A stretch of 64,000 nt of DNA from NCBI GenBank assembly GCA_016934985.1, contig JAFGRU010000036.1, positions 1 through 64,000 on the forward strand, given 5' to 3'. Below the pieces are notes generated by a model. The model saw only the letters and a program-made list of their open reading frames with translations, made no database searches and was not told the DNA's origin. A program made the position numbers and the translations under genes. Positions 27,563-53,400 of the stretch are shown one piece after another (position 1 is the stretch's first letter; each line of letters begins with the position of its first letter). The DNA is from Deltaproteobacteria bacterium. Its GTDB lineage: Bacteria; Desulfobacterota; Desulfuromonadia; Desulfuromonadales; JAAYDE01.

Positions 27563-28885
27563 TTAAATTTTAACAGATTCTCCCAATTGGGAGTTTTTAT
27601 AAGAAGCGATAATTTTAACCGGGACCGTCCGGCCGATCAGCTCCGACCCGCCGTTGAAATTGACAATCCGGTTCCAGACCGTTCGCCCGAAGATCTGACC
27701 GTTGCCCTGACGGCTCTCCCCTTCCACCAGAACCGGGAAGTTTTTGCCGACATCTCCAGCCCAGACTTCCAGACTGATCTGCTCCTGAATGTCCAGAAGG
27801 CATTGAAATCGCTGCTGCTTCACCACGCCAGGGGTTTCGTCTTGCAAATTCAAAGCCCGTGTGTTGGGCCGCGGCGAATAAAGGAAGGTAAAGGCGTCAG
27901 CGAAGCGTACCTCTTCAACTAAAGCCAGGGTATCTTGAAAATCTTCTTCAGTCTCGCCGGGGAAACCGACGATGATATCTGTGGTCAAGCGGATATCAGG
28001 GCAGACCCGCTTCAAAAAAGCTACTTTGTCCAGATAGGCCCGACGGCTGTAACCCCGCCCCATAAGCCCGAGAATCCGATCGGAACCGCTCTGAAAAGGC
28101 AAATGGATATGACTGCAGAGTTTGGGCAAGTCGGCAAAACACTTGATTAACTCATCGGATATATCCCGAGGATGGGAGGTCACAAAACGGATCCGCTCAA
28201 TTTCAGGAATCTCATGGACCCGGACCAGAAGTCCGGCAAAGGAAAGTCCATCAGGAAGATAATTGCCATAAGAATTGACGTTCTGCCCGACCAAGGTGAC
28301 TTCGCGGGTGCCATTTTCCGCCAGTCGTCGGACTTCCGCGACGATTTCCGTACTGGGGCGGCTTATTTCCCGGCCCCGCACATGAGGCACTACACAATAG
28401 GCACAAAAATTATCGCACCCCTGCATCACCGTAACAAATTGACTGATGCTTCCGTCGCAACGTCTTGTCGGGAACAGACGCAGACGGCTCTCCTTGTCCA
28501 GAAAGGCGACTTCATGACTGCGCCGCCCCTTCTTTGCATTTTGGATCATTTCCGGTAAGCGGTGAATATTATGGGTACCAAACACCACACCCACATGGGG
28601 AAGCTGTTCCAAAAGGCGTTCACCTTCCTGTTGGGCGACACAGCCGCCCACGGCGATGATCAACTCGGGATTGCTCTCTTTAAGGGGCTTGAACTGCCAG
28701 AGGTGGCCGACAACCTTTCTTTCCGCTTTTTCCCGGATAGTGCAGGTGTTGAGCAGAATCAGGTCGGCCTCTTCCGGGATGCTGGTCGGCTCATAGCCCA
28801 TTTCCTCCAGTAAACCGGCAATCTGTTCGGAGTCCACGACATTCATCTGGCATCCGAAAGTCTCCAAGTAGAATTTTTTTTCCAT
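27563..28885 (-). CDS. miaB: tRNA-2-methylthio-N6-dimethylallyladenosine synthase
   Basis: 440 residues from ATG 28885; the frame is open 48 codons further upstream, but that part is not family-like. MiaB is a radical-SAM enzyme with two [4Fe-4S] clusters that methylthiolates i6A-37 of tRNAs. Visible are YLETFGCQMNVVDSE with the first cluster cysteine, the LLNTCTIREKA and GGCVAQ cysteines, the radical SAM motif CDNFCAYC, IVGFPGETEEDF, and a C-terminal TRAM domain. QGCDNFCAYCVVPHVRG distinguishes MiaB from MtaB/RimO well. AGGGA lies about 10 bases upstream. It appears monocistronic. Confidence 0.93.
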   Translation of the reverse strand: MEKKFYLETFGCQMNVVDSEQIAGLLEEMGYEPTSIPEEADLILLNTCTIREKAERKVVGHLWQFKPLKESNPELIIAVGGCVAQQEGERLLEQLPHVGVVFGTHNIHRLPEMIQNAKKGRRSHEVAFLDKESRLRLFPTRRCDGSISQFVTVMQGCDNFCAYCVVPHVRGREISRPSTEIVAEVRRLAENGTREVTLVGQNVNSYGNYLPDGLSFAGLLVRVHEIPEIERIRFVTSHPRDISDELIKCFADLPKLCSHIHLPFQSGSDRILGLMGRGYSRRAYLDKVAFLKRVCPDIRLTTDIIVGFPGETEEDFQDTLALVEEVRFADAFTFLYSPRPNTRALNLQDETPGVVKQQRFQCLLDIQEQISLEVWAGDVGKNFPVLVEGESRQGNGQIFGRTVWNRIVNFNGGSELIGRTVPVKIIASYKNSQLGESVKI

Positions 28886-29678
28886 AAGTGCCAAATCCCT
28901 ATCGATTTTGCCGAAATGGTAAGTGGATAGATCGAGAAAAGTCAATGGATTTCCCGGGCCGGAATGCCACCCGGCAGGACTTCCCGTACTTTTACCCCAA
29001 CAAAAGAAGACTTCTGCCATAACCGCCAATTTAAATATCAGCTCTTGAGTGGCGGCTCAACTTTTAAAAATGATTCTTTCGACTACGAGCTGCGATCTAT
29101 CACCTAATAAGTCTATTAAACGACAAAAAACCGGAAAACTTCCAGGTCATTTTGTGGCAGTTCGGGGCAGCTGAGGCTCACGCGTGTTCCTGTTCTGCCA
29201 AAAAAATGGAGCGATTCCAATTCGGTCTCTTAAAGCTGAACCAGAAACCTTTTTATCCGGTCAAAAGGTTGGCCTACCGTTCAAGACGGGAGACCAAATC
29301 CGGTCCAAAGAACCCAAAAATAGTAAAGAGCGTAAAAGTTTTTTAGCTATTGGACACGAGCCTGGGAAAACTATCCGACAGCCAGATATAACCCTGCAAT
29401 AAAAAAAACGATTATAATGAGGGCGCATTAGGCGGAGTCTGCCCTCCTTTTATTAGACCTGCCAGAAAAAAAGCCAATGGACACAGGGCCGGACCGCCCG
29501 CGAAGGACGGAAAAAAGGGCTGATTTTCACCAGGGGTCCCGGCTCTACCGATGACCAAACTAAAAATGGAAAATCTTAAATATCAGTCCTCAGTCTGATA
29601 TCTGGTTCGTTTTTTCTTTCGACAACCTGACAAATCAAATAATCCCCAGGAACGCTTTTGAAAAACTGTAAATTAAAC
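28886..29678. other. Long intergenic region miaB / iclR
   Basis: About 790 bases without a recognisable gene between divergently transcribed miaB and iclR. It contains one terminator-like hairpin on the plus strand at 29419-29449 (GAGGGC / GCCCTC arms then CTTTTATT) that terminates no known gene, with TATAAT just before it at 29413-29418. A GC-rich fold at about 29478-29550 superficially recalls a c-di-GMP riboswitch but lacks its core motifs. Confidence 0.4.
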
Positions 29679-29706
29679 TTGACAATAATATTGCGGGAAA
29701 TATAAT
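29679..29706 (+). promoter_or_regulatory. Consensus sigma-70 promoter of iclR and the hydroxy-acid locus
   Basis: TTGACA (29679-29684), 16-base spacer, TATAAT (29701-29706): both hexamers are perfect consensus. Transcription should begin near 29713, about 40 bases before the iclR ATG. Confidence 0.8.
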
Positions 29707-29707
29707 T

Positions 29708-29744
29708 ATTGCACGATATGAAATAACCATTCACATTGTGCAAT
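29708..29744. promoter_or_regulatory. Inverted repeat over the predicted start site, likely autoregulatory operator
   Basis: ATTGCAC (29708-29714) and GTGCAAT (29738-29744) are perfect inverted 7-mers separated by 23 bases. They start two bases after the -10 box and lie just before the regulator gene. Position suggests repression by the adjacent IclR protein; binding is inferred. Confidence 0.5.
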
Positions 29745-29753
29745 AAAAAACAT

Positions 29754-30533
29754 ATGACATTCATAAAATCTATCGAAAAAGCTGTTGACGTCCTTTCCTG
29801 CTTTACTCTTGAAAACCCTCTCCTCAGGGTTGTCGAAATCAGTCACCTGACCGGCCTGAACCAGAGTACCGTCTCACGGATTCTTTCTACGCTTGCTAAA
29901 AAGCAATGTATTGAACAGATCGTGCCCAGCGGTAAATATCGACTGGGGATTAAATTTCATCAGTGGTCTGCCGTACTTCGTCATAAAACGAATTTGCCGG
30001 ACCTGGCGCGACCAGTGATGGAGAAACTTCGGGACTCTTGTGGGGAAGAGGTTACCCTCTATGGGCTCGATGAAAATCGAAGAATCTGTCTTGAAGCTGT
30101 AAAAAGCCATTTTGACTTGGCGAAAGTCACACCGGTAGGCAAGATTTTACCCCTTCATTGCGGCGCGGCCGGCAAGGTTCTTCTTGCTTACCTTACACCC
30201 TCTGAACGAAAGAAATTTATCAGCAGTAAAGGCCTGGAAAAATTTACCCCTGAAACCATCGTTAATCCAGAGGAGCTGGAGATGCATCTGGAAAAGATCC
30301 GCCAGGATGGTTATGCGGTAAGCCAGGGTGAGAGGGAAAAAGGGGCTTATTCGATTGTCGCGCCGATTTTTAATCAAAATAAGAAAATAGCGGCAAGCCT
30401 TTCCGTAAGTGGTCCGATTTTCCGTCTTTCTGAAACAGCGTTAAAGAAAAATATCGAAGCTGTTCAGCATGCTGCAAATGAAATTTCAGTGCTCCTAAGC
30501 AAATCCAATTTGAATCACAGACAGAATAGCTGA
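29754..30533 (+). CDS. IclR-family transcriptional regulator
   Basis: 259 residues from ATG 29754; a TTG at 29736 adds six codons. The N-terminal winged helix (about residues 8-75) has the IclR pattern SIEKAVDVLSCF, then LTGLNQSTVSRILSTLAKK. The C-terminal effector domain (about 80-255) includes LPLHCGAAGKVLLAYL and EREKGAYSIVAPIF. IclR proteins usually control one nearby catabolic or transport operon in response to its substrate. Here the gene heads the TRAP-larA-enolase-glycerate kinase run and carries its own strong promoter with an overlapping inverted repeat. The ligand is probably the transported hydroxy acid. Confidence 0.92.
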   Translation: MTFIKSIEKAVDVLSCFTLENPLLRVVEISHLTGLNQSTVSRILSTLAKKQCIEQIVPSGKYRLGIKFHQWSAVLRHKTNLPDLARPVMEKLRDSCGEEVTLYGLDENRRICLEAVKSHFDLAKVTPVGKILPLHCGAAGKVLLAYLTPSERKKFISSKGLEKFTPETIVNPEELEMHLEKIRQDGYAVSQGEREKGAYSIVAPIFNQNKKIAASLSVSGPIFRLSETALKKNIEAVQHAANEISVLLSKSNLNHRQNS

Positions 30534-30637
30534 TGAGGTTTCCCTCAAAACGGTTTTGCGATGCAATAAAATCAGGATTATTAGAGACAGAACTTAGCAA
30601 ACCATTCGGACGGTTAATTTTCGGGAAAGGTTTTTAA

Positions 30638-31912
30638 GTGGCGCTACTGGCTTTGATCATTTGTTTTGTGCTGTTGCTGCTGATCGGATTCCCCATTGCC
30701 TTCAATCTGATTCTCAGTTCGATTGTCTATCTCCTGATTGGAGATTATCCCCTGACACTGGTTTCCCAAAGAATGTTTCAAGGGATGAACGGTTTTGCTC
30801 TGCTGGCCGTCCCTTTCTTCATTCTTACCGGACAATTAATGGTCAAGGGAAGTCTTCTCAAGTCACTGACCGATTTCGTTAATGCGTTTGTGGGACATGT
30901 GCGAGGGGCTCTTGCTCTTGTGACTGTCGGCACCTGCCTTTTTATGGGGGCCATTGTCGGCCTTGCGGTTGCAGCCACTGCTTCACTGGGTTCTTTTCTT
31001 ATCCCGATGATGAAAGAGGAGGGATACTCCGCAGGGTACGCTTCCGGAGTGATGGCATCGGCCTCCCTGCTCGGACCGATCATGCCACCCAGTGTCTTGA
31101 TGATCATATATTGCATTTCCGTCGGTCGAACCTCAATCGCCGGCATTTTTCTCGCTTCCATCGTTCCCGCCGTCATGATCGCCCTCGCGCAGATGCTGGT
31201 GATTTATTTTTTGGCCCGAAAGAGGAATTACCCCTGCCATGAAACCGGAGACTGGCCGGAAAAATGGAGACAGTTCAGAAAGGCCTGCCCGGCATTGATG
31301 CTGCCGGTCATCATCCTTGGCGGAATCTTTGGTGGGATATTCACCGTAACTGAAGCCTCGGCAGCGGCCGCCGCCTATGCTTTTTTCCTCTCCATGTTCG
31401 TCATGAAAGATGTTAAATGGTCCGATCTCCCCTCCATTTTTATGGAGACGGCACTTACTTCCGGTCTGGTCATCATGCTCGCGGGAAGTGCAACTATCAC
31501 CGCGTGGGCCATCTCGAACGAACAGATTATTCAGACCGTAAGCGGTCCCATGTCCCAGATTCCGGTCTGGCTTTTCCTTTTTTTGCTGAATATTCTTCTC
31601 CTTATCAACGGCATGTTCATGGATGACTATGCCTCTGTCATCGTCCTTGGACCGATCCTGGCTCCCATCGCCTGGGCAATGGGAATCGACCCTCTCCAGA
31701 TCGGGGTTATCATCTGCGTCAACCTGGTTATCGGATTAGCCACGCCCCCGTTTGGGATCACCCTTTTCGTTACAAGCCCGATGGCCGGAGTCACCATCGA
31801 ACAAACGGCCAAAGAAGGTTTGCCGATGATCCTGATCAGCATCCTGGTCCTTTTCCTTGTTACTTACGTCCCGGCCTTGACTTTATGGTTACCCCGAATG
31901 TTCGGCTATTAG
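30638..31912 (+). CDS. dctM: TRAP transporter large permease (DctM)
   Basis: 424 residues with about 12 hydrophobic helices, starting at GTG 30638 with AAAGG upstream. Family marks include FALLAVPFFILTGQLM, GPIMPPSVLMIIY and VNLVIGLATPPFG. DctM is the sodium-driven translocation subunit of tripartite (TRAP) transporters for organic acids. Unlike the usual P-Q-M order, dctM comes first here, 104 bases after iclR. Substrate cannot be read from this subunit; the neighbouring enzymes point to a hydroxycarboxylate. Confidence 0.93.
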   Translation: MALLALIICFVLLLLIGFPIAFNLILSSIVYLLIGDYPLTLVSQRMFQGMNGFALLAVPFFILTGQLMVKGSLLKSLTDFVNAFVGHVRGALALVTVGTCLFMGAIVGLAVAATASLGSFLIPMMKEEGYSAGYASGVMASASLLGPIMPPSVLMIIYCISVGRTSIAGIFLASIVPAVMIALAQMLVIYFLARKRNYPCHETGDWPEKWRQFRKACPALMLPVIILGGIFGGIFTVTEASAAAAAYAFFLSMFVMKDVKWSDLPSIFMETALTSGLVIMLAGSATITAWAISNEQIIQTVSGPMSQIPVWLFLFLLNILLLINGMFMDDYASVIVLGPILAPIAWAMGIDPLQIGVIICVNLVIGLATPPFGITLFVTSPMAGVTIEQTAKEGLPMILISILVLFLVTYVPALTLWLPRMFGY

Positions 31913-31993
31913 ATAGGTTGGCAGTACGGCAATCCAAGATTCCCGAACTGTCGTTTTGAAGTAACGGCTACAATTTAAAAAGGAGGTAGGATC

Positions 31994-33022
31994 ATGAAAA
32001 AGAGGCACCTTTTTACCGGCACAGCTCTCTTGGCGGCATCGCTATTCCTATTTTCGGGAATAGTATTCGCCAAAACCACAAAAGCAAGAATTTCGGTCTG
32101 CAATTCCATGACCCACCCGCAAACGATCGGCCTGATGCTTTTCAAGAAATATGTTGAAGAGGAAACCAAAGGAGCGGTGGAAATTGCCATCTACTGCAAT
32201 TCCCAGCTTGGTGGAGAAAGGGAATCCGTTGAGCAGGTCAAAAGCGGGGCACTGGAAATGGCGACGGCCTCGGCTGGCCCTCTGACAACCTTCAACAACA
32301 AATTCATGGTCCTGGACATTCCCTTTGCATTTGACAGTTATGACGCCGCATGGGGAGTACTGGACGGACCCATGGGGCAAAAACTTCTGGAATCCAGTGA
32401 AAGCATCGGCCTGAAAGGTTTGGCTTTCATGGAAAATGGCTTCCGTCATGTCACCAACAACGTCCGGCCTATAAACGGCCCTGCAGACCTTGATGGCATC
32501 AAGATCAGGACCATGGAAGCTCCCATGCACATGGCAAATTTCAAAGGTCTCGGCGCCAACCCGACCCCTGTCCCCTGGACTGAACTCTACATGACGATGC
32601 AGCAGAAAATTGTCGATGGCCAGGAAAACCCTTTGGCTAACATCTGGGAATTAAAGATGTATGAAGTACAGAAGTACACCTCGCTGACGGGACATATTTA
32701 CGACCCGATGCCGCTGGTCGCCAATCTGGCATGGTTCAACAAATTGCCCAAAGAACACCAGGCCATCATTGAAAGGGGAGCGCTGTTGGGACAGAATTAC
32801 AGCCGTTTCGTCAATCAAGCCCGCGAGCGGGAACTCGTCGAAAAGCTTGAGGCCAAGGGGATGAAAGTCAACGATTTATCGGCCAAAGCCAAGGAGGAAA
32901 TGAGAAAGAAATCTCAGGGAGCAGTCGTAGCCCAAATAAAGTCCAGCACCGACAAAAAATTTGTCGACGAGTGGCTCGAAGCAATCAAAGCCTTTAATAA
33001 AGATGTAAATGCCGGAATGTAA
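31994..33022 (+). CDS. dctP: TRAP transporter periplasmic solute-binding protein (DctP)
   Basis: 342 residues with a clear signal peptide (LFTGTALLAASLFLFSGIVFA) and GGAGG ahead of ATG 31994. Mature-protein marks of the DctP family are GGERESVEQVKSGALEM, GFRHVTNNVRPI, and the carboxylate-binding arginine in the DLDGIKIRTMEAP stretch, then PTPVPWTELYMTMQQKIVDGQ and ENPLANIWE. The arginine normally salt-bridges the substrate carboxylate, so an organic acid ligand is expected. A stable hairpin follows the stop and may protect this mRNA segment, giving excess binding protein. Confidence 0.93.
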   Translation: MKKRHLFTGTALLAASLFLFSGIVFAKTTKARISVCNSMTHPQTIGLMLFKKYVEEETKGAVEIAIYCNSQLGGERESVEQVKSGALEMATASAGPLTTFNNKFMVLDIPFAFDSYDAAWGVLDGPMGQKLLESSESIGLKGLAFMENGFRHVTNNVRPINGPADLDGIKIRTMEAPMHMANFKGLGANPTPVPWTELYMTMQQKIVDGQENPLANIWELKMYEVQKYTSLTGHIYDPMPLVANLAWFNKLPKEHQAIIERGALLGQNYSRFVNQARERELVEKLEAKGMKVNDLSAKAKEEMRKKSQGAVVAQIKSSTDKKFVDEWLEAIKAFNKDVNAGM

Positions 33023-33031
33023 GGATGCCTG

Positions 33032-33071
33032 GCCGGAGGGGATGGGCTCCCATTGCCCTTCCCCCTCCGGC
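33032..33071 (+). promoter_or_regulatory. Stable hairpin between dctP and dctQ
   Basis: A perfect 10-bp stem, GCCGGAGGGG (33032-33041) and CCCCTCCGGC (33062-33071), with a 20-base loop and no U tract. More likely an mRNA-stabilising or attenuating element than a terminator, because dctQ continues downstream. Confidence 0.65.
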
Positions 33072-33128
33072 AATCGAAGCCCGGGAAAAATCTTTCTGAG
33101 TAACGTAGAAGCAGAGTTTTCGGAGAAC

Positions 33129-33644
33129 ATGGAAATGGACGAGGGAAGACTGGAAACGCTCTGTAATTATCTAGAGAAAATTACCTTGGGGATAACCATG
33201 GCCATGTGCGTGGTTATGCTCGTCGTCGCCTGGATGCATGTGATCAAAAGGTACGTCTTTAATGACGCACTCACTTGGTCCGAGGAATTTCTCCGCTTCG
33301 CCATCGTCTGGTATGCCCTTCTGAGCGCAAGCATTCTTTACAAACGCAACGGCCATTTGGGCATCACCATTTTCCGCGAAATGATGCCCGAGAAGGTGCA
33401 GAGGATTCTGGCCAGGTTGGTAATCTATTTCGGCGTGCTGACCATTGTTGTGGTGACCGTTTTTGGGGCCGTTCTCGTTTATAACACCCGCGCTCAGATT
33501 ACGCCCGCTCTCGGAATTTCAGTCAGCTGGCCCTATGCGGCCATTCCCGTCAGTTTTTTATTAATGACGGTTTACGGCATCATGCACATTGTTCGGGACA
33601 TCAAAGGACTTCCGCCCCTTCATGTGGACCATGTTGACGAATAA
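33129..33644 (+). CDS. dctQ: TRAP transporter small permease (DctQ)
   Basis: 171 residues with four hydrophobic helices (about 18-40, 55-75, 93-117 and 134-155). The DctQ signature ALTWSEEFLRFAIVWYALLSAS is present, followed by KRNGHLGI. The frame opens earlier at 33009, overlapping dctP, but the preceding stretch is not protein-like. ATG 33129 has GGAG only three bases away; ATG 33135, two codons on, has better spacing and is an equally good start. The subunit bridges the binding protein and DctM in the inner membrane. Confidence 0.88.
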   Translation: MEMDEGRLETLCNYLEKITLGITMAMCVVMLVVAWMHVIKRYVFNDALTWSEEFLRFAIVWYALLSASILYKRNGHLGITIFREMMPEKVQRILARLVIYFGVLTIVVVTVFGAVLVYNTRAQITPALGISVSWPYAAIPVSFLLMTVYGIMHIVRDIKGLPPLHVDHVDE

Positions 33645-33876
33645 AAACAATTATTATCATTTCCATATTTTACCGAGGTAACAAGGATTTTCGCCACATA
33701 CACCAAACAGCCAGCGGCGGAAATTAAAGGCTGTATTCTTTGACAAAAATGGAAAAACTCCTTTAGACAAAATCGCATGTCCGCACTTTGACACAAAAGA
33801 AATTTTCCGCCCTCGAGCCCGGCTGTATCTATCGGCTCTGGGACGGTTTCTATAAAAATCTTAAACCGGGTGAGAT

Positions 33877-35181
33877 ATGTATTCCCTTGTAAGGAAAAAC
33901 GGAACTGAAACCTTTCGTGACGACCTCGAAGATGTAACAATTTCAACTCCCGTCAAGAATTGCCTCGGACTTTTGCAGATCCGGGAACCCTCCCCTCTCT
34001 CCTGGCCCGAAGATTTCAGTTCAGCCTTTGCAAGCCCAATCGGCACTCCTCCGTTGCGTGAATTGGGGGCTGGAGTCAAACGGGTTGCCGTGATCGTTTC
34101 CGATTCGACACGCGGCGTACCCACCTCGGCTGTCATGCCGATGATATTAAAGGAACTGGCATTCGCAAACATCCCCCCCCAGAAGGTGACCGTTGTGATC
34201 GCAACAGGCGTTCACCGGCCGGCAACCTCCGAAGAGATCAGTGCAATCGTAGGAATCGACAATGCGGACAAGGTAAAGGTAGTCAATCATGATGCTTTTG
34301 CCGCGCATGAGTTGGTCAACCTGGGAAACACCTCCTACGGAACGCCGGTTGAAGTCAACAGGCACGTTTACGAGGCGGAGCTGAGAATCATCGTCGGCAA
34401 GGTGGAGCCCCACGAGTTTGCAGGTTTTTCCGGAGGGCGGAAATCCATCCTTCCGGGAATCGCCGGCGAAAGTGCTATCCGCCACAACCACCGTCCGGAA
34501 ATGCTCATGTCGCCCATTGCCCGTCCCGGGCAACTGGAGGGAAACCCAGTCCATCTCGATATGCTTGAGGCTGCCCAAAAGCTGGGGGTGCAATTTACAA
34601 TTAACATGGTTCTCAATAAATCCGAAGAAACCATTGGCATTTTTACCGGAGGCCTGCAGGAGGCTCACCTTGCTGCGGTCCAGTTCATGCGAAGCTTCTG
34701 CCAGATCACCTTGAACCAGCAGCCCGATGTCATTGTCACGACCCCGGGAAAACCTCTGAACATAGATTTCTACCAATCGGTAAAACCCCTGATCGCCCTA
34801 GCCCCGGTAATGGCGCCCGGAAGTGTTCTCGTTCTTTATTCCTTCTGCCGGGACGGGCTCGGGACCACGGATATGCTGATTCCCTATGAGGGGGCAAAAA
34901 ATATTGACGAGGTAATAAGCCGCCTGAAGTCCGATTATCGAATTCAGATGGATCACGCTCTTCTGATCGGCAAAATCCTTCAGCAGGGGGTGCATATTAT
35001 CATAACCACTCCTCATGTGAGCTCCGCGGTTCTTGAAAAAATGTTCCTTGCGTCAGCGAATTCGCCTCAGGAGGCCTTGAATCAGGCCCTCCAGATAATT
35101 AAAAAACCGAACCCATCGGTTTTGTTTTTTCCCCAGCCCCAACGGGCTTTAACCGTTTTGAATCAGGCAACAACCAAATAA
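33877..35181 (+). CDS. LarA-family nickel-dependent 2-hydroxyacid racemase/epimerase
   Basis: 434 residues. The catalytic set of lactate racemase LarA is complete: Asp76 and Arg79 in SDSTRG, His113 in GVHRP, His179, Lys189 and His205. His179 and Lys189 are 10 apart (PHEFAGFSGGRK) and His205 is 16 further on, the exact LarA spacing (His174, Lys184, His200 of the Lactobacillus enzyme). Lys189 should carry the nickel-pincer cofactor made by LarB, LarC and LarE, which are not in this window. LarA relatives interconvert C2 stereoisomers of lactate, malate, gluconate and other hydroxy acids. With a TRAP system, glycerate kinase and hydroxyacid dehydrogenase around it, it probably inverts the imported acid; the substrate is not determined. 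Confidence 0.85.
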   Translation: MYSLVRKNGTETFRDDLEDVTISTPVKNCLGLLQIREPSPLSWPEDFSSAFASPIGTPPLRELGAGVKRVAVIVSDSTRGVPTSAVMPMILKELAFANIPPQKVTVVIATGVHRPATSEEISAIVGIDNADKVKVVNHDAFAAHELVNLGNTSYGTPVEVNRHVYEAELRIIVGKVEPHEFAGFSGGRKSILPGIAGESAIRHNHRPEMLMSPIARPGQLEGNPVHLDMLEAAQKLGVQFTINMVLNKSEETIGIFTGGLQEAHLAAVQFMRSFCQITLNQQPDVIVTTPGKPLNIDFYQSVKPLIALAPVMAPGSVLVLYSFCRDGLGTTDMLIPYEGAKNIDEVISRLKSDYRIQMDHALLIGKILQQGVHIIITTPHVSSAVLEKMFLASANSPQEALNQALQIIKKPNPSVLFFPQPQRALTVLNQATTK

Positions 35182-35206
35182 GAGGATATTAAAGGAGTTA
35201 ACGACC

Positions 35207-36481
35207 ATGAAAAAATTCAAGATTACAGGGGTCACCGCCAGGGAAATACTGGACTGCCGATGGAACCCGACCGTTCAGGTGGATGTCTGGGTCAACGATG
35301 AAATTCTCGGTAGGGCCGATGTACCTGCGGGCCGCTCCACCGGCGCAAATGAAGCGAAAGAGATCCGTGACGGCGAAAAACGCTATGCCGGTTTGGGCGT
35401 CCGGAAAGCCGTTCGCAATGTGTGTGAAATTCTCGGACCCGCGGTTATTGGCATGGACGTGACCGACCAGCGGAAAATTGATGAAAAATTGCGCCTGACG
35501 GACGGCAGCGCCGACAAATCGAAATTGGGCGCCAATGCCCTGATCGGGGTCTCGCTGGCCGTCGCCCGCGCTGCGGCCGCGGCCGTTCATCTTCCTCTTT
35601 ACCGCTATGTCAACTGCAACGCTCACATTCTTCCCGTCCCGCTCCTGAATCTTCTCAACGGCGGCAAACTGACCTCCAATGATCTTGATTTTCAGGAGTT
35701 CTGCATTTTCCCCATTGGCGCCGAAAGCTTTTCCGAAGCAATGGCCATTGGCAACGCGGTCAACAATGAACTTCGTGAGATCGTCATAGCCAAATACGGA
35801 AAAATCGCGGCCAACGTCGGGGATGAGGGCGGATTTGCCACACCGATCGTTAAGGTCGATGAAGCGATGGATTTCCTGGTCCAGGCGGTTGATCGTGCCG
35901 GGTATGAAAAAGAGATTGTTTATGGGCTTGATTGTGCAGCGACCCATTTCTTTGATCCTGAAACCGGGAAATACACCTTGGAAGGCAATGATCTGACCAC
36001 TGCCGAACTGCTGGACTACTACAAGGCTCTGACAAAAAAATACCCCATCAAGAGCATCGAGGATCCATTTGCCGAGGATGATATTGAAGGGTTCGTAGAA
36101 GCCACTAAAGAATTGGGAATCCAGATCATCGGCGACGATTTTCTGTGCACGAATCCTGACCGGGTCCGCGAGAGGGCTCCCTTGGGAGGAGGCAATGCCC
36201 TGTTATGGAAATTCAATCAGATAGGAACACTGTCGGAAGCCCTGGATGCGGCAGAATTGTCCTATCGGCAGGGATTCGGCATTATGGTCTCAGAACGATC
36301 GGGCGAAACAGAGGACCCGATCATTGCCGATCTCGTTGTCGGTCTCAATGCAGGCCAGATAAAAACCGGCGCGGGCGTCCGCGGCGAGAGAACATCGAAG
36401 TACAATCGCCTTTTCCAGATCGAGGCGGAACTTGGTTCGCAGGCCCGTTATGGAGGCCGGGATTTTCGTGCTGCCTTTTAA
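35207..36481 (+). CDS. Enolase-superfamily paralogue with altered substrate site
   Basis: 424 residues, alignable with enolase over its whole length. Metal ligands Asp242, Glu285 and Asp310, the acid/base pair Glu207 (NVGDEGG) and Lys335 (LLWKFNQIGT), Glu164 and Lys386 are all present. Two histidines that in yeast enolase (159 and 373) contact the 2-phosphoglycerate end of the site are gone: NGG-x-HA became NGGKLTSN (Leu155), and SHRSGE became SERSGE (Glu363). The mobile loop is AGRSTG in place of SGASTG, and DSRGNPT is DCRWNPT. I infer a dehydratase for a related, perhaps unphosphorylated, 2-hydroxy acid rather than a second glycolytic enolase. GGAG lies eight bases before ATG 35207, 25 bases after the racemase gene. 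Confidence 0.8.
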   Translation: MKKFKITGVTAREILDCRWNPTVQVDVWVNDEILGRADVPAGRSTGANEAKEIRDGEKRYAGLGVRKAVRNVCEILGPAVIGMDVTDQRKIDEKLRLTDGSADKSKLGANALIGVSLAVARAAAAAVHLPLYRYVNCNAHILPVPLLNLLNGGKLTSNDLDFQEFCIFPIGAESFSEAMAIGNAVNNELREIVIAKYGKIAANVGDEGGFATPIVKVDEAMDFLVQAVDRAGYEKEIVYGLDCAATHFFDPETGKYTLEGNDLTTAELLDYYKALTKKYPIKSIEDPFAEDDIEGFVEATKELGIQIIGDDFLCTNPDRVRERAPLGGGNALLWKFNQIGTLSEALDAAELSYRQGFGIMVSERSGETEDPIIADLVVGLNAGQIKTGAGVRGERTSKYNRLFQIEAELGSQARYGGRDFRAAF

Positions 36482-36489
36482 CCTCTTGT

Positions 36490-36534
36490 GTCAGGAGTGG
36501 CGGACGGAGCTGTCCCACCGGCCGCCACACTGAC
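36490..36534 (+). promoter_or_regulatory. Intercistronic hairpin before the glycerate kinase gene
   Basis: Arms GTCAG-GA-GTGGCGG (36490-36503) and CCGCCAC-A-CTGAC (36522-36534) pair over 12 bp with a small bulge. No U tract follows, so it more likely affects mRNA stability or processing than termination. Confidence 0.6.
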
Positions 36535-36557
36535 TGAAGTCCAGAGTCGGAGGCATT

Positions 36558-37928
36558 TTGAACTATATCCAGAATCTAGATGAGATCGTATCGCACGGCA
36601 ACATAAAATTGCGGCGACTGGCTCTTGAAATTATCAATCATGCCTTGAACAAAGCTGATCCCTATCTGGCGACGAAGGAACTTGTTCATCTCCACGGGGA
36701 TTTTCTTGAGGTCGGAGGAAATAGTCTCGACCTCAAGAAACAGGGTAAAATTTTTCTTCTGGGAGCAGGGAAAGCCACTTTTCCTATTGCGAAAGCCCTA
36801 GAGGAAATAATTGGGAATCGCATTGCGGATGGCGTGATAATTTGCAAATATGGGCAATCAGGGGCTCTGGATCACTCGAGGCTCTACCTTTCCAGCCATC
36901 CGATTCCAGATGAAGCAGGGCTTGATGCGGCACACGAAGCACTTGCCCTGGCCCGTGCCACCCGTGAAGGGGATATCGTTTTTGCCTGCGTCACCGGTGG
37001 AAGTTCCGCCCTGATGCCTTACCCCGTTGAAGGTATAACACTGGAGGAAAAGAAACTGGTCAACCAGTTACTCCTGACCTGCGGTGCCAACATCATTGAG
37101 ATTAATGCCGTACGAAAGCACCTGAGCCGGATCAAAGGGGGATGGCTGGCCAAGGCTGTTCACCCGAAAGCGCACCTGATCAACCTGACCGTCTCAGATG
37201 TTATCGGAGACCCCCTTGACTACATCACCTGCCCCACTGTTCCTGACACATCCAGTTTCGAAGATGCCCGCCGCACTCTGGACAAGTACGAGCTCTGGGA
37301 CAAAGTCCCCGCTTCGGTCGCCGCCCATATCAAAACAGGGGACCCGACCTTGGAAACTCCCAAAGAAAAGGATTTTGCCGGGCACCTGCTCGACACCTTC
37401 ATCATCGTAGAGGGGACCGCGGCCTGTGAAGGAGCCGCCGAAAAAGCGCGGGAAATGGGTTTCGAAACGATGATCCTTTCCACAATGCTGGAAGGGGAAA
37501 GCCGCGAGGTCGGTGGGATGTTTGCTGCAATCGGCAAAGAGATTATCATGAACAAGCGTCCCCTGAAAGCTCCCTGCGTCATAATCGGCGGAGGAGAAAC
37601 AACAGTGAAAATCATTGGAAAGGCCGGCCGGGGAGGACCGAATCAGGAATTTTCACTCGGAGCCGCCCTGGGGCTCGACCGGGGCGGCGAAATTGCTGTC
37701 ATCGGTCTGGACTCGGACGGCTCGGACGGCCCCACTGAGTTTGCCGGCGGCATCGGGGACAATTTTACCCTCGGCCGAGCCAGAGAGCTTGGCATCGATC
37801 TATTCAGCGTCCTGAACAGACATGACGCCACCTCAGCTTTGACCAAGCTGGGTGATGCCATCCTGACCGGTGCAACCGGGACAAATGTCAATGATCTTAA
37901 GCTGATGATTATCATGCCAAAAACCTAA
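36558..37928 (+). CDS. MOFRL-family glycerate 2-kinase
   Basis: 456 residues, starting at TTG 36558 with GGAGG four bases upstream; an ATG start is not available nearby. Family features are LLGAGKATFPIAKALEE, CVTGGSSALMPYP, INAVRKHLSRIKGGWLA, LTVSDVIGDPLD, and the C-terminal MOFRL domain with IGGGETTVKIIGKAGRGGPN and LDSDGSDGPTEFAGG. Enzymes of this family (GckA, TtuD) phosphorylate D-glycerate to 2-phosphoglycerate using ATP, feeding central metabolism through enolase. This suggests that glycerate, or a compound converted to it, is the end product of the locus. Confidence 0.9.
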   Translation: MNYIQNLDEIVSHGNIKLRRLALEIINHALNKADPYLATKELVHLHGDFLEVGGNSLDLKKQGKIFLLGAGKATFPIAKALEEIIGNRIADGVIICKYGQSGALDHSRLYLSSHPIPDEAGLDAAHEALALARATREGDIVFACVTGGSSALMPYPVEGITLEEKKLVNQLLLTCGANIIEINAVRKHLSRIKGGWLAKAVHPKAHLINLTVSDVIGDPLDYITCPTVPDTSSFEDARRTLDKYELWDKVPASVAAHIKTGDPTLETPKEKDFAGHLLDTFIIVEGTAACEGAAEKAREMGFETMILSTMLEGESREVGGMFAAIGKEIIMNKRPLKAPCVIIGGGETTVKIIGKAGRGGPNQEFSLGAALGLDRGGEIAVIGLDSDGSDGPTEFAGGIGDNFTLGRARELGIDLFSVLNRHDATSALTKLGDAILTGATGTNVNDLKLMIIMPKT

Positions 37929-38036
37929 TCGAATCCTTTTTAGTCCTCCCGGATAGTTTTTAAACAATCTGACTGCCGGTAATAAAAGTAACAATCCGGG
38001 AAGACCGGCAAGGCTTGAATACTATTTTGGACAAAT

Positions 38037-39020
38037 ATGTTAAAACCAAAAATAATTTTCGCCGATTCCTTCAACCTGCTGGACGATGTTCGGAAGCAGT
38101 TCGCCGCTCTGGGGAACATCCTCCAATTGACTCTTGATCAAAGAGAAGCGCTGCTGCAGGAAGTTTCGGATGCCGACCTGGTGATCGCTGAATATGCCCA
38201 AATTGACGAAACTCTTTTGAATCGCGGCAGAAAACTCAAAGGGATATTGGTCTACGGTACAGGCACTAATCACGTGGATCTGGGTGCCGTTGCAGGCAAA
38301 GGGATTCCGGTTACCAATACCAGGGGAGCTAACGCCGGAGCCGTTGCCGAGTTGACCTTCAGCCTTATGCTGAATTGCATCCGCCGGACAGCCGTTGCTC
38401 ATCGGTACGTGCAGGGGGCCAACTGGAAGAGTGGTGACAGCGGGGACCTGCCGGACGAGTTTACCGGCATCGAACTCAGCAACAAAATTCTTGGCATCAT
38501 TGGTTTCGGTGCCATCGGCCGGCGGGTTGCCGGGATAGGAAAAGGTTTTGGGATGAATGTGTGCTTCTATGACCCGAACCTGCATGGGAAACTCTCTCCG
38601 GAAGTACCGGCCCGGCCCTGCAATGATCTCGATTCATTACTCCAGGAAGCCGATATCGTTTCTGTTCACGCGCCTCTCACGCCGGCGACATGTGACTTGC
38701 TAAATGCACACAAATTACGCCTGTTGAAACCCTCCTCCATTCTAATCGTCACCTCCCGGGGAGGAATTGTCAATGAAGAGGTTTTGGCCGACATGCTGGC
38801 GCGGAAAGAAATTGCCGCCGCAGGACTGGACGTCTTTCGAACCGAGCCACTGGAAAAAACAAGTAAATTATTGACCTTGGACAATGTGGTGTTAACCCCG
38901 CATATAGGCGGTTCCACCCGGGAAGCAGTAGTAAATATTTCACGGACCCTTATTGAACAGGCCGCCGCCATAATTACCGGAAAAACACCGATCAACCTGA
39001 TTACACCCGCAAATGTTTAA
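38037..39020 (+). CDS. D-isomer-specific 2-hydroxyacid dehydrogenase
   Basis: 327 residues with the two-domain fold of this family. The NAD-binding loop is GIIGFGAIGRRVAG (about 155-168). The catalytic triad is visible as Arg in TSRGGIVNEE, Glu in FRTEPLE and His in LTPHIGG. An acidic residue is expected at the end of the second strand; the sequence there is FYDPN, favouring NAD(H) over NADP(H). Members act on D-3-phosphoglycerate, D-lactate, glycerate/hydroxypyruvate and similar acids. In this locus it could reduce a 2-keto acid, such as hydroxypyruvate, to the substrate of the neighbouring kinase. It ends the plus-strand run. ATG 38037 has only a weak ribosome-binding site. Confidence 0.9.
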   Translation: MLKPKIIFADSFNLLDDVRKQFAALGNILQLTLDQREALLQEVSDADLVIAEYAQIDETLLNRGRKLKGILVYGTGTNHVDLGAVAGKGIPVTNTRGANAGAVAELTFSLMLNCIRRTAVAHRYVQGANWKSGDSGDLPDEFTGIELSNKILGIIGFGAIGRRVAGIGKGFGMNVCFYDPNLHGKLSPEVPARPCNDLDSLLQEADIVSVHAPLTPATCDLLNAHKLRLLKPSSILIVTSRGGIVNEEVLADMLARKEIAAAGLDVFRTEPLEKTSKLLTLDNVVLTPHIGGSTREAVVNISRTLIEQAAAIITGKTPINLITPANV

Positions 39021-39164
39021 AAACCTAAGAAATCACCTCCCTGATTTAGATGCTTACTGAAGGATTTCAGCAGGCTGGATTTTATTTAACAAAAAGGGTT
39101 CAGGACCAGTTGCGTATATAATTAAATCTAATAGAACTCAAACTGATTACCTGCGCCAAATCCT

Positions 39165-40427
39165 TCAGTTGTTCTTCATCTGCAGACCCCGCTCAGCGGC
39201 CCGGCGACCTAATTTCCCGGATGGCTCGGCCCGAACCACATCTGCGTAGAGATTCGCGGCCTGACCCACTTTTCCTTGCCGCTCATAGGCCTCAGCGAGA
39301 AGGAAGGCTCCTTCTATGGTGGGAAGAAGGCGCATTGCTGCTTCCAAGTGAACTAGAGCCTGATCGGGCTGATCGTCTTCAAGCAGACAGTAGCCCATCC
39401 CTAAGCGGGAATAATAGTAATTCGGGGAAAGGCGAACAGCCTGCCGCAGGTAATGACCTGCCGAGTGAAGGTCTTCAGCTTGTAGATAAGCCAGCCCCAG
39501 GCGACACAAAATCAAAGGGTCGTCGCTTGCTTCAGCAGCAGCTTGGAGATAAAAAGCAACGGCACCGTTAAGATCACCACGTTTTTCGAGTTTCATACCC
39601 TCATCAAAATAATCAAGCCCCTGGGAATTCTGACGCAACCTGACGGTTGCCCGGGCATAAGCTGCCTCACCCAGGTAACGGCTTCGATTCCCCGGGGAAA
39701 GAAAATTATCCACATAGCGTTTTGTGTTGATCCACCTTTCCTGACACACCGCATGGGGCTGCAGGTGGCCGCCAAAGGAACCCTGCGCCCCGGACCAAGC
39801 ATCCATCAACCACAGTATGCCACGGGGGTTATAGCCGGTCTGGTTCAAATAGTTGACGGCAATCTGGTCGGCATCCCGTTCCTGGCGGAGAGTGAATTGC
39901 CAGGCCAACAGTTGAGCAACCAGGTCCTGGGCCGCAACAACGGATTGATTAAAGGAGAGCGAATCGATTTCATCAGGTGTTTGGTCCCGAAAGCGCAGGT
40001 ACAATTTGCTATCCCGCAAAGCATCATTCAGGTGAAAGTCCTCCACGTGGGCAATGAGGTGCCCCAGGATTGCGGCAAGTTGGGTCTCGTTTTCCAGTCT
40101 CAGCATCAATCCCCTGGAAATACCGATATAGCCCCCGGGAAACACAAAAGCACCCGGAAGGGAGGAATTGACCACCTGAAAATGGTAAGTCACTTCGGAA
40201 CGCCCTGCGTACTTTGCCAGCTTTTGCCCTACACCCTCGACATAGACAAGCAATTCGGAATCATTGCAAACCCCTCCCATTTTTTGCACCGCCCAGGGGA
40301 AAAGCATGTTGCCGACGGCAACCTCCTCAAGAAGGGGGACATCCTCCTTGACCGCCATGGGAACATAGGCACAGCTCCAACAGAAAAAAAGAACCTGGGA
40401 AAACAGCACGAGGTTGCGGATTCTCAT
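39165..40427 (-). CDS. M48-like lipoprotein with TPR repeats, catalytic glutamate missing
   Basis: 420 residues from ATG 40427 (GGAGGG upstream); the longer frame to 40478 is not supported. A lipobox near LFFCWSC marks an outer-membrane lipoprotein. Residues 35-260 follow the BepA/YfgC M48 pattern, including PGAFVFPGGYIGISRGLM and the later ERDAD zinc-ligand motif. The expected HEXXH is HLIAH at 123-127: both histidines are kept but the catalytic Glu is Leu, so it should not hydrolyse peptides. The C-terminal 150 residues are TPRs, as in BepA. A chaperone-like role in outer-membrane protein quality control is plausible. It faces the hydroxy-acid run convergently. Confidence 0.82.
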   Translation of the reverse strand: MRIRNLVLFSQVLFFCWSCAYVPMAVKEDVPLLEEVAVGNMLFPWAVQKMGGVCNDSELLVYVEGVGQKLAKYAGRSEVTYHFQVVNSSLPGAFVFPGGYIGISRGLMLRLENETQLAAILGHLIAHVEDFHLNDALRDSKLYLRFRDQTPDEIDSLSFNQSVVAAQDLVAQLLAWQFTLRQERDADQIAVNYLNQTGYNPRGILWLMDAWSGAQGSFGGHLQPHAVCQERWINTKRYVDNFLSPGNRSRYLGEAAYARATVRLRQNSQGLDYFDEGMKLEKRGDLNGAVAFYLQAAAEASDDPLILCRLGLAYLQAEDLHSAGHYLRQAVRLSPNYYYSRLGMGYCLLEDDQPDQALVHLEAAMRLLPTIEGAFLLAEAYERQGKVGQAANLYADVVRAEPSGKLGRRAAERGLQMKNN

Positions 40428-40764
40428 GATGCCCTCCTTCTCCATAAAATTGCTGTAAATATGGGCTGCGAGGCACACTCTTTTTTACAAGTTTATTACT
40501 CTCACCAAAGAAAGCCAGAAACAAGTTTAAAAGCATGATTCATTGTTATATTTCAGCTTATTGGCACAAGGCCTCGCATCACCCATTCCGAGGACCGCGT
40601 AAACTCATCAATGGGGCAACACGAGTCCTTGTACTGAATAGTTTCATTCATTATTTAAAAAATCGTTTTTTAACTGGAATTCAGGATGATTCTGCTTTAG
40701 TATTTAAAAGTTTTGCTAAACTGAGAAGATAGGTTATTACACAATCATTAGATCGGCTAATTTC
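40428..40764. other. Intergenic region M48-like gene / typA
   Basis: 337 AT-rich bases holding the divergent promoters of the two genes. No gene, RNA or clear operator was recognised, and no promoter stands out. Confidence 0.3.
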
Positions 40765-50425: not shown

Positions 50426-53400
50426 TTAAGTTACAGCCAACCTGTTGCTCCTGACAAAATGCTCGGCAGCTAAAATCCGAAGATCATCCTCATACCGGAG
50501 AGACTTACTTGCAATGGCCCATAGATCGAAAGTTTCTGGACACGCCATGGTTGCAACGGCCATAAATCCTGCTTTTTTCAGTGTATTGCTCAAAACCTTT
50601 TCGGTGAAACCACAGCGATGGGCCATGAAAATATTGCCCCTGGCCATTGACGCACGGTGCCCATATAGAATGTCAAGAGGTGCGATAGGGCCCGCAGCTG
50701 ATTGATAGGCAGGATCACAAAGTTTGTCTTCAGCCACCAGGGCACACACGGACTTGAGATCAGGGCAAGTAATCACTGTAAAACCGTCATCCTTCAATAC
50801 GCGCAAAAACTCTTTGAGCGCCAGCGGGACATCATGTGGGTAAAGGTGCTCAATGTTGTGGCTGGAAAAGATGGCGTCGACCGAAGCATCGGCAACCCTT
50901 GACATGTCCGTCATAGTGCCGACGATATCCGGGTTGACCGCCTCGTTGATGTCGAGGCGCAATTCGCACCATTGGTCAGTATTAAAACCTTTAGTAGTGG
51001 CATCCTTGCGTTGGGGGCCGCAACCAACATGAAGGAAGGTTTTGGGCGCTTTTGCCTTCCCCAATGGCGCTTCTTTCTTCGGCCTCTTGCTGTTAGGGTC
51101 CAAACAGCTCTGCGGTGGTTCTTTTTTCCGCCACATTGCCCATAAAGCATCCTCAAAGTTGTGAGCGAATCTCGAAGCATCGAAAAGCGGCGATTCGAGC
51201 ACCTGCGACCTCAGTTCTGCCCTCAGGAATGCCAACTTTTGCAGTTCGCTTGCCTTGGCAACAGCCTTGTCAATATATTCCGCTTCGCTGGCTGCAATCC
51301 AATCTTCCAATCCCGCTGCTGTAAGAAGGCTCGCGCCCTGCCGCGACAGGAGGGTGTCGCCCGCCAGGGTGAGTGTCGGGACGCCCATCCACAATGCTTC
51401 ACAGGTTGTAGTGCCTCCCGGGTATGGAAAGGTGTCGAGAATCATGTCGGCCTCAGCATGAGATGCCAGATAGTCGGCTCGGGACATGGAGCCATGCAAT
51501 TTTACTCGCGCCGGATCTATGCCAACTCGCTGCAAGCGTTCGAAGGTTTGTGCAACAACTTCCTGGTCGTTAAACTGAGCGCATTGCCAACGCAACCGTG
51601 CAGTGGGCAATGCGTTTAAAACAGCGTTCCAGGTTCCCAGCACCGCATCCCCGACCTTGGTCAGCATCTGAAAACAGCCGAAGGTAATATAACCATTCTC
51701 CAGTGCGGGCAAAGGGGCAACGGGCAGATCAAGCTCCGGCGCACTGAAACACAGACGGGTATCAGGCAAGTACCATAAGGTTTCGGTGAAATTAGCTCGC
51801 TGGGTTTCGGGCACCCCCACCTCGTCCGCCAGAAAATAATCGATTTCAGGCAGCCCGGTAGTGGCGAAATATCCGAGCCAGGAAGCCTGCACCGGAGCTG
51901 GTTTCCACGCAAACATCGGCAGACGGTTGTGGGAGGTGTGCCCTGAAAGATCAATAAGGATATGAACTCCATCCTTATGAACCATGTGTGCAGCCGCTTC
52001 ATCAGACAACCCGTACAGGGGTGCCCAGGCATCGAAATACGGCTTGATGCGGGCGGTCAGGCCATCGGCCTTGGGCTTGGTGGGATAGGCAACCAACTCC
52101 ACACGATCACGATTGAATACCCCGAGCAGACTTTCCAGAAAAAAACCCACCGGATGGTTATACAGATCACCCGATACGAAACCTATCCGCAAACGTTGGG
52201 GCTGGGGCTCACAGTGCCATTTGGAAAATGGGGTTTTGACTTTTCTGCCCACCATGCGCCCAAATTTTCGTGCTTCCTCAAGATGAGACGTCTTGGGAGG
52301 AGTAGAGGTGTAATTCATCGTGAACAGCAGGTGGCTGTTTTTCTCGGGGCAGTCAGGGTCAAGTTTCAGCGCCCGGCGTTGACTGGCAATCGCTTCCTCA
52401 AGGCGCCCCTGATAACGAAGGCTGACACCCAGATTGATATGGGCCAATGCCGAATCAGGTTGGATTTTCAGAGCATGCCGATAGCAGTCCTCCGCTTCGA
52501 TGATTCGTCTCTGATCCAGAAGATTGGCGCCGAGGTTATTATAGATTGCGGCATTGGGTCCGCTCTTCAGCGCACGGCGAAAGCATGTTTCAGACTCTTG
52601 GAGACGCCCTTGACCTCGATAAAGGTTCCCCAAATTGCTGAGCGCCGCCGGGAAATCAGGCCGCAGATCCAATGCCCTGCAAAATAGTTTTCCTGCTTCA
52701 TCAAGACGAACCTTTTTTTGCATGAGAACACCCAGTACGTTATGTACATCGGGATCTTCCGGCAATAATTCCAAAGCCTTCTGCATAGGTTGCAAGGCAT
52801 CATCAATCCGTTCCTGCTGCTCCAATATCTGGCCCAAGACTTTCCAGCCTAATCCATGACCCGGATAACGCACCGTCAAATCTTTAGCAAAGGTTATTGC
52901 TGCTGATGTCTGCCCTTTACTTTGTAGACGCTCAAGCTTGTTAATTTCTTGAGAACTGGGGCCTTGTCCTTTTCCAACGGCACTTTCCCCGCCAGACAAA
53001 ACCGATAAGTGAGATTTTTGCGTTGCGAAAGATTGTGTTTTAGCTTGAATACAACTTGCTAGTTCATCTACAGTAACCCCTTGCAAACCATGATTCCGCC
53101 CCAAATCCAACATTTGTGAAGCGCTTTCTATTTGGTCCGACTGAATTAGGGCACTGATGTAACTCAACCAATAGTGCTCACATTCAGGTTTTTCTTTAAG
53201 GGCATTATGCAAAAAGGAAAGACCTGTCCCCACCTTATCCTGCTCTAACAAAACCCCAAAGTTGTGATTGGCATCAGGGTGATTCGGCAGCACTTCGAGG
53301 ATACCGCGATAAAGCTCTTCTGCCTCGTTGATTTCTCCGGACAATTGATGTTGTTCTGCTTGTTGCAAAGCCTGAACAACGGTTTGCTCAAGTTCCTGGT

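Follow-up and report, generated by a model that had tools for sequence, protein, structure and literature searches.

Enolase (phosphopyruvate hydratase) is usually regarded as a fixed enzyme of glycolysis. In the glycerate branch of the non-phosphorylative Entner–Doudoroff pathway, as laid out in PMC2063504, a class II glycerate 2-kinase (GK; the MOFRL/DUF4147 family, with solved structures 1x3l and 2b8n) acts before enolase and pyruvate kinase. The LarA superfamily of nickel-pincer 2-hydroxyacid racemases and epimerases includes lactate racemase, the malate racemase Mar2 and the gluconate 2-epimerase GntE. Relatives of GK, enolase and LarA are encoded side by side in a stretch of 64,000 nucleotides from a Deltaproteobacteria bacterium (the window: assembly GCA_016934985.1, contig JAFGRU010000036.1, positions 1-64,000, forward strand), within a run of eight co-directional genes on the + strand: an IclR-family regulator, the TRAP transporter proteins DctM, DctP and DctQ, LarA, an enolase homologue (here Eno*), a GK homologue (GK*) and a D-2-hydroxyacid dehydrogenase (Table 1).

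Gene content and conservation support a predicted, conserved operon for the uptake and breakdown of a 2-hydroxy acid, in which an enolase paralogue is linked to LarA. The balance tips just in favour of a kinase-first catabolic operon, i.e., one in which phosphorylation precedes elimination and the substrate of Eno* is probably not plain 2-phosphoglycerate. The order of kinase, enolase and pyruvate kinase would be that of the glycerate branch, but the enolase of the operon is a dedicated, altered copy linked with the kinase and, in certain lineages, also with LarA.

Eno* was compared across 31 loci, each counted once, from several bacterial phyla and from haloarchaeal plasmids. It belongs to the family of ordinary enolase (TIGR01060) and shares with it the metal ligands (D246, E295, D320), the catalytic base (K345), E168 and E211, K396, and the arginine and serine that hold the phosphate (R374, S375), all of which are kept in the 30 of 30 Eno* scored (residue numbers of yeast enolase). 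It differs in that Ala38, in the SGASTG loop, is replaced by Arg (29) or Lys (2) and His373 by Glu in 31/31 Eno*, whereas Ala38 and His373 are present in 13/13 ordinary enolases compared; in that position 251 is His in 28/28 Eno*, where the 13 ordinary enolases have Glu (10) or Ser (3); and in that Trp or Phe precedes the catalytic lysine (again 28 Eno* against 13 ordinary enolases, with one odd enolase, L112, excluded from the comparison). In the window, the residues are R43 (yeast Ala38), L155 (His159), H247, W334 and E363 (His373). Seventeen of the 31 loci, including that of the window, lack His159. The loss of His159 was considered as a mark of linkage to LarA and was rejected, as L082 and L084 have LarA yet keep His159, and L047 and L038 have lost it without having LarA. 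In the odd enolase (L112, G655:C21:80963-82216), which lies outside Eno*, positions 373 and 168 are Ala and Asp, respectively; the same genome has an Eno* and an ordinary enolase.

In cyanobacterial enolase, according to PMC8996150, the counterparts of His373 and Glu168 hydrogen-bond a water near C3, metal 2 is coordinated by the carbonyl of the Ala38 counterpart, and the counterparts of Arg374 and Ser375 hold the phosphate; the matching of cyanobacterial to yeast residues was made here, by motif. Judged by its residues, Eno* looks fit to hold a 2-phosphate and a carboxylate and to take the C2 proton, with the leaving-group side and the closing loop changed. Since the phosphate, metal and base residues are kept but His373 and residue 38 are altered, the substrate of Eno* is probably other than 2-phosphoglycerate. 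A search of titles and abstracts found no mutant study of enolase His373 or His159.

In a quick tree (29 Eno* and 14 other rows), Eno* form a single clade beside the enolase of M. jannaschii (Shimodaira–Hasegawa-like approximate likelihood ratio test, SH-aLRT, 95), with a haloarchaeal member on a long branch; the best solved relative of the window Eno* is M. jannaschii 2pa6. The genome of the window has a second, ordinary enolase with ordinary motifs, and there is a further enolase beside Eno* in each of the 7 Eno* genomes searched. The Eno* of two haloarchaeal plasmids (L072 and L114) are divergent, having a CGRSRG loop and ERSGQTPD, and the kinase motif at these loci reads TGGASAQ or TGGTSAQ; going by these motifs, they possibly represent a further specificity.

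The most constant neighbour of Eno* is a DUF4147 kinase, which adjoins it or lies one gene off in 28 of the 31 loci. The exceptions without a nearby kinase are L055, where the locus ends inside Eno*; L084, a second Eno* copy in genome G1624 that has LarA and a TRAP permease as its neighbours; and L065, in whose genome a kinase with the GK* motif (L099) is on another contig. GK* has both the DUF4147 and the MOFRL domain and shares most conserved motifs with class II GKs, and it scores under the NCBIfam glycerate 2-kinase cut-offs. The motifs SGGGSAL and IASGPT, conserved by our own comparison (in PH0495 and nearly so in the other GK of the window genome) and not by a curated definition, are not matched by the window GK*, which has TGGSSAL and I-TCPT. 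Thus, GK* has GGS for GGG, a Thr at Ala202 of PH0495 (numbered here on the aligned piece) and an IASGPT motif shortened by one residue. The third Gly of SGGGSAL is Ser in 25/25 GK* compared and Gly in 7/7 others, with one unlinked GK that has Ser (L104) excluded from the comparison; among the linked kinases, GGSS stands for GGGS in 26 of 28, and two haloarchaeal ones have GGAS and GGTS. The second GK in the genome of the window is ordinary and has ordinary motifs. Pairwise distances of Eno* and GK* are correlated (r = 0.958, 25 loci), and 0 of 2000 permutations gave a value as high (maximum 0.437); this is expected if both travel together, and alone is no proof of a shared substrate. A PADLOC search with GK* gave no result. 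At one locus (L038, 11315-12735), GK* appears as two frames that overlap, possibly through a frameshift or an error of assembly.

LarA is present in 12 of the 31 Eno* loci. The pathway to the cofactor of LarA comprises LarB, LarC and LarE; of these, LarC was the one searched for, and its gene is present in the genome of the window. The window LarA keeps the catalytic residues D72, H108, H174 and K298 and the nickel-pincer nucleotide residues R75, K184 and H200, i.e., all catalytic and cofactor-binding residues listed for the superfamily in section 7 of PMC7583248 (section 8 of which also served as background); it scores under every LarA equivalog cut-off, including those of NCBIfam for malate racemase (MAR). 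For the four published specificity positions of the pocket, section 6 of PMC11770544 gives the codes F-F-W-E/Q for lactate/glycerate racemases (LAR), Y-F-H/Q-T for hydroxyglutarate (HGR) and E-V-A-H for the gluconate epimerase GntE, and H/Q-K at the last two positions (358/359) for malate racemase. These positions are E, F, D and H in 12/12 LarAs linked to Eno* (the last two residues of the window LarA being placed by ungapped alignment to Mar2). This code equals none of the LAR, GntE, HGR and MAR codes: the pocket does not fit F, F, W, E/Q, it has D and H at 358/359 where malate racemase has H/Q and K, and it is nearest to GntE, with which it agrees at two of the four positions (E and H). The code was not seen in 28 unlinked LarA homologues, these being the best matches from the same class with short loci (L005-L032), in which the first two residues are M and W and the last two, as judged by eye, W and C (where the script columns fell on an alignment gap); no enolase was found in the flanks of these homologues. 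At L065, a distant LarA-domain protein (347-1603; Lar_N 8.8e-11) lies directly before Eno*, as if another LarA subgroup had replaced LarA.

A search of a genome collection with the window Eno* as query returned 25 loci, comprising 21 with the same paralogue, 3 ordinary enolases and 1 fragment (with ordinary residues where readable). The first-pass annotation had tied its pathway to co-conservation of the genes in other genomes, and this was borne out: the complete eight-gene order was found in 7 other genomes (L033, L039, L040, L041, L042, L044 and L045), and L043 matches it as far as its contig end. Because the whole order recurs complete in these genomes, the arrangement is more than chance. 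At Syntrophaceae-type loci, the dehydrogenase in last place is only distant kin of that in the window (about 200 bits, against 495 for L033), so that, going by these scores, the position of the last gene is conserved but the orthologue is not. Eno* is rare, both in its own phylum (4 of 395 sampled genomes at E 1e-140, its own genome included) and elsewhere; in samples of four other phyla, each of which contains its centre genome by construction, it was present in 1/398, 1/301, 2/246 and 3/249 at E 1e-170. A close relative of the window LarA was found in only one other genome of the class (70% identity, the next match having 38%; 277 genomes searched). Of 14 plasmid matches, H1, H2, H3, H9 and H12 were examined, and H9 is an ordinary enolase. 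No Eno* was confirmed in the viral contigs scanned, and the E. coli genomes searched held no near match for the Eno* stretch of the Salmonella plasmid described below. Near a contig end in G1624 (C1), two very similar Eno* copies (L083 and L084) lie about 10 kb apart, one with GK* and the other with LarA; between them are genes for hydantoinase B, an octopine-dehydrogenase-like protein and a TRAP-type transporter.

The neighbours of Eno* and GK* elsewhere include enzymes that handle phosphoenolpyruvate (PEP). On a Salmonella plasmid, Eno* lies with an MFS permease, GK*, a D-Ala-D-Ala ligase homologue, GntR, pyruvate kinase and GNAT; at L082, there are LarA, Eno*, GK*, a divergent protein of the PEP carboxykinase family and a 2-hydroxyacid dehydrogenase. 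These PEP-handling neighbours support a phosphoenol product. A Paraburkholderia plasmid carries GntR, Eno*, GK*, Lrp, a polyamine-type ABC transporter, a D-amino acid dehydrogenase homologue, RidA, GhrA and a class II aldolase, and at the Bacillota locus L058, GntR, Eno* and GK* are accompanied by an amino acid permease and an enzyme resembling gamma-aminobutyrate aminotransferase. On a Halorubrum plasmid, Eno* and GK* lie beside a mandelate-racemase-family protein and a mannonate dehydratase homologue (under the family cut-off), in a stretch that also has 2,5-dioxovalerate dehydrogenase and D-2-hydroxyacid dehydrogenase. Self-resistance was considered for the Salmonella plasmid, where the drug targets eno, pyk and ddl are duplicated, and was dropped, since the cluster also holds GK* and an organic-acid-type MFS permease.

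In the proposed pathway, the TRAP transporter, of which the set in the operon is complete (DctP, DctQ and DctM), would import a 2-hydroxy acid, the protein families being evident and the class of substrate presumed. LarA, with its nickel-pincer cofactor, would invert C2 and so make both epimers usable. Phosphorylation is most likely the step that comes before elimination, because the phosphate-holding Arg and Ser are kept in 30/30 Eno* and because Eno* is constantly accompanied by the kinase and not by LarA: GK* would use ATP to phosphorylate the C2 hydroxyl, and the conserved lysine of Eno* would then take the C2 proton, with expulsion of the C3 group to give a phosphoenol acid. Pyruvate kinase, presumably the housekeeping copy in the genome of the window, would hand the phosphate back to ADP, the net result being an ATP-neutral elimination to a 2-oxo acid, and the dehydrogenase would join 2-oxo acids to the same hydroxy acid.

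As to the substrate, the favoured guess is a polar sugar acid of C4 or longer, of the erythronate/threonate type, since the LarA code is nearest to that of gluconate epimerases and the haloarchaeal context is of sugar-acid type. Plain glycerate is less likely, because of the altered residues of Eno*, GK* and LarA. Of the two candidates put forward in the first-pass annotation, L-glycerate thus keeps a lesser place, and the larger sugar acid is preferred, though unproven. Sulfolactate (with sulfite leaving) and tartrate were considered and put aside: the acidic LarA pocket (E175, D358), which has no malate-racemase lysine, argues against an anionic side chain without excluding one. By sequence, the nearest solved relatives of DctP are 4p9k/4pak, 4p47 and 4pdh; of these, 4p9k/4pak and 4pdh are presumably binders of D-erythronate or pantoate (sugar acids), a further reason for the preference. 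The predicted model of DctP was poor (pLDDT 49.5), and a fold search from it was not used for specificity.

The main rival of a kinase-first pathway for another acid is the ordinary use of glycerate, in which the TRAP transporter would import glycerate, LarA would convert L- to D-glycerate, the GK would make 2-phosphoglycerate, the enolase paralogue would turn this into PEP, and the dehydrogenase would reduce hydroxypyruvate to D-glycerate, the changes in the active sites only tuning kinetics. All the enzyme families fit, and glyoxylate/hydroxypyruvate reductase-like dehydrogenases recur at Eno* loci. Lactate-type LarAs racemise glycerate (PMC11770544); class II GKs make 2-phosphoglycerate, some turning over L-glycerate at 13-34%, and the combination of GK II and pyruvate kinase is already known for glycerate (PMC2063504). 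However, the genome of the window already has an ordinary enolase and an ordinary GK, Glu stands for His373 in every Eno*, and the code of the linked LarAs is unlike that of lactate/glycerate racemases, so that this explanation is judged rather unlikely. In 7 of 12 genomes, a search of the DUF4147 class found no kinase besides GK*, which therefore could serve glycerate there. This point also weighs against the kinase-first pathway for another acid, as do several more. All the enzymes of the operon are also compatible with plain glycerate, and the pyruvate kinase of the Salmonella plasmid has, by eye, no obvious change with respect to a solved one, which suits ordinary PEP. The spatial placing of residues 38 and 373 is borrowed from another enolase (PMC8996150). 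The 28 comparison LarAs are close kin of each other and so are not independent, and LarC was not found in G1624 and G1821, though both carry linked LarAs. The Ser motif is not unique to linked kinases, as the unlinked L104 has GGSS, and in the kinase tree GK* do not form a clean clade, since two label changes are needed and the haloarchaeal L072 groups with L104. Finally, the neighbours vary by lineage (TRAP, TTT, MFS, polyamine-type ABC, amino acid permease, aminotransferases, arginase family), and the transporters and upstream enzymes differ too much to indicate a single substrate.

The first-pass annotation included dehydration of the hydroxy acid to a 2-keto acid. In such a version, the enolase paralogue would act directly on the unphosphorylated acid, in the manner of the sugar-acid dehydratases of the wider superfamily, with the kinase in a separate glycerate branch. 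The altered active site, including the loss of His159 in the window and in 17 of 31 loci overall, would suit such a reaction, but all 30 Eno* scored retain Arg374, Ser375 and the metal ligands, and it is the kinase whose position is most constant and whose distances track those of Eno*, LarA being present in only 12 of 31 loci. Direct dehydration is thus highly improbable; that part of the earlier proposal falls away, and the uptake and breakdown of a hydroxy acid by a conserved operon with an enolase–LarA linkage stands. Slightly less improbable is a C3 leaving group other than hydroxyl, e.g., with GK* phosphorylating isoserine and Eno* expelling ammonia to give PEP, where E373 of Eno* and E175 and D358 of LarA would hold the cationic side chain. 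Several lineages have fitting neighbours (a polyamine-type ABC transporter, a D-amino acid dehydrogenase homologue with RidA, class III aminotransferases, the arginase family, an amino acid permease), and the ordinary-looking pyruvate kinase beside Eno* suits PEP as product; however, these amine-type neighbours are lineage-specific, and there are none in the window operon, whose DctP has presumed sugar-acid binders as its nearest solved relatives.

It is an even call whether the kinase-first chemistry extends to a wider statement, namely that the Eno* proteins are a family of enolases whose reaction is new. Working only with its partner GK*, Eno* would act on a 2-phospho hydroxy acid that is not 2-phosphoglycerate, in an ATP-neutral cycle of kinase, enolase and pyruvate kinase; this cycle would be scattered among bacterial phyla and haloarchaea, and in some lineages a LarA with a new epimerase specificity would supply it. 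If this is true, the phosphorylate-then-eliminate chemistry known from lower glycolysis has found a second use with other acids, and a carbon source new for anaerobic and soil bacteria could be named. Databases call Eno* an ordinary enolase, and the labels “phosphopyruvate hydratase” and “glycerate 2-kinase” on Eno* and GK* genes may be wrong. No title or abstract opening describing a pairing of LarA or DUF4147 with enolase was found in the open-access literature searched (supplementary gene-context tables of LarA papers and subscription papers could record the link), and neither of the two main papers on the LarA superfamily uses the word enolase in its main text; this agrees with the earlier remark, which knew of no described pathway joining a LarA homologue and an enolase paralogue.

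All eight genes reported at first are present, at the same place and on the same strand, behind one consensus promoter (Table 1). This promoter is the only site with all 12 consensus positions among 15 promoter-like sites scanned in 28500-40500, where shuffled sequence gave a mean of 9.8 sites of any quality. A TTGACA box lies upstream of the iclR gene in 8/8 relatives compared, and TGCACAATGTGCAT-like repeats lie behind the box, in the same place, in several relatives; since both precede iclR in relatives, these features, judged by eye, suggest that the IclR protein acts on the operon promoter. The gap between the DctQ and LarA genes is 232 bp, and so an internal promoter is possible.

Table 1. 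Promoter, candidate operator and genes of the predicted operon, with positions in the window.
Feature	Positions	Strand	Evidence
Sigma-70 type promoter, TTGACA-16-TATAAT	29679..29706	+	12/12 consensus positions
Probable IclR operator	29706..29746	none	TTATTGCAC ... GTGCAATAA inverted repeat in the promoter-to-gene interval; by eye, no statistics
IclR-family regulator	29736..30533	+	Pfam IclR_C 2.2e-44
TRAP large permease DctM	30638..31912	+	TIGR00786 378 bits, over cut-off
TRAP solute-binding protein DctP	31994..33022	+	TIGR00787 250 bits, over cut-off
TRAP small permease DctQ	33009..33644	+	Pfam DctQ 2.4e-30
LarA-family nickel-pincer 2-hydroxyacid racemase/epimerase, pocket code E-F-D-H	33877..35181	+	Lar_N 3.8e-58
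Eno* (enolase paralogue)	35207..36481	+	TIGR01060 503 bits, over cut-off
GK*, class II (DUF4147/MOFRL) glycerate 2-kinase homologue	36558..37928	+	DUF4147 4.5e-70
D-2-hydroxyacid dehydrogenase, phosphoglycerate dehydrogenase/glyoxylate reductase-like	38037..39020	+	2-Hacid_dh_C 4.5e-54

The likelier start of IclR is the ATG at 29754, and the true start of DctQ, going by the start of its orthologue, is probably at about 33129-33135. The nearest NCBIfam models to IclR are BhcR and PcaR/PcaU, both far under cut-off, and the D-2-hydroxyacid dehydrogenase scores under all equivalog cut-offs. Elsewhere in the window (50426-53446, - strand), a gene encodes a tetratricopeptide repeat (TPR) protein of 1006 residues that by eye has the look of an O-GlcNAc-transferase-type glycosyltransferase with a methyltransferase-like end; it sits in a flagellar gene cluster beside flagellin, and may be involved in flagellin glycosylation.

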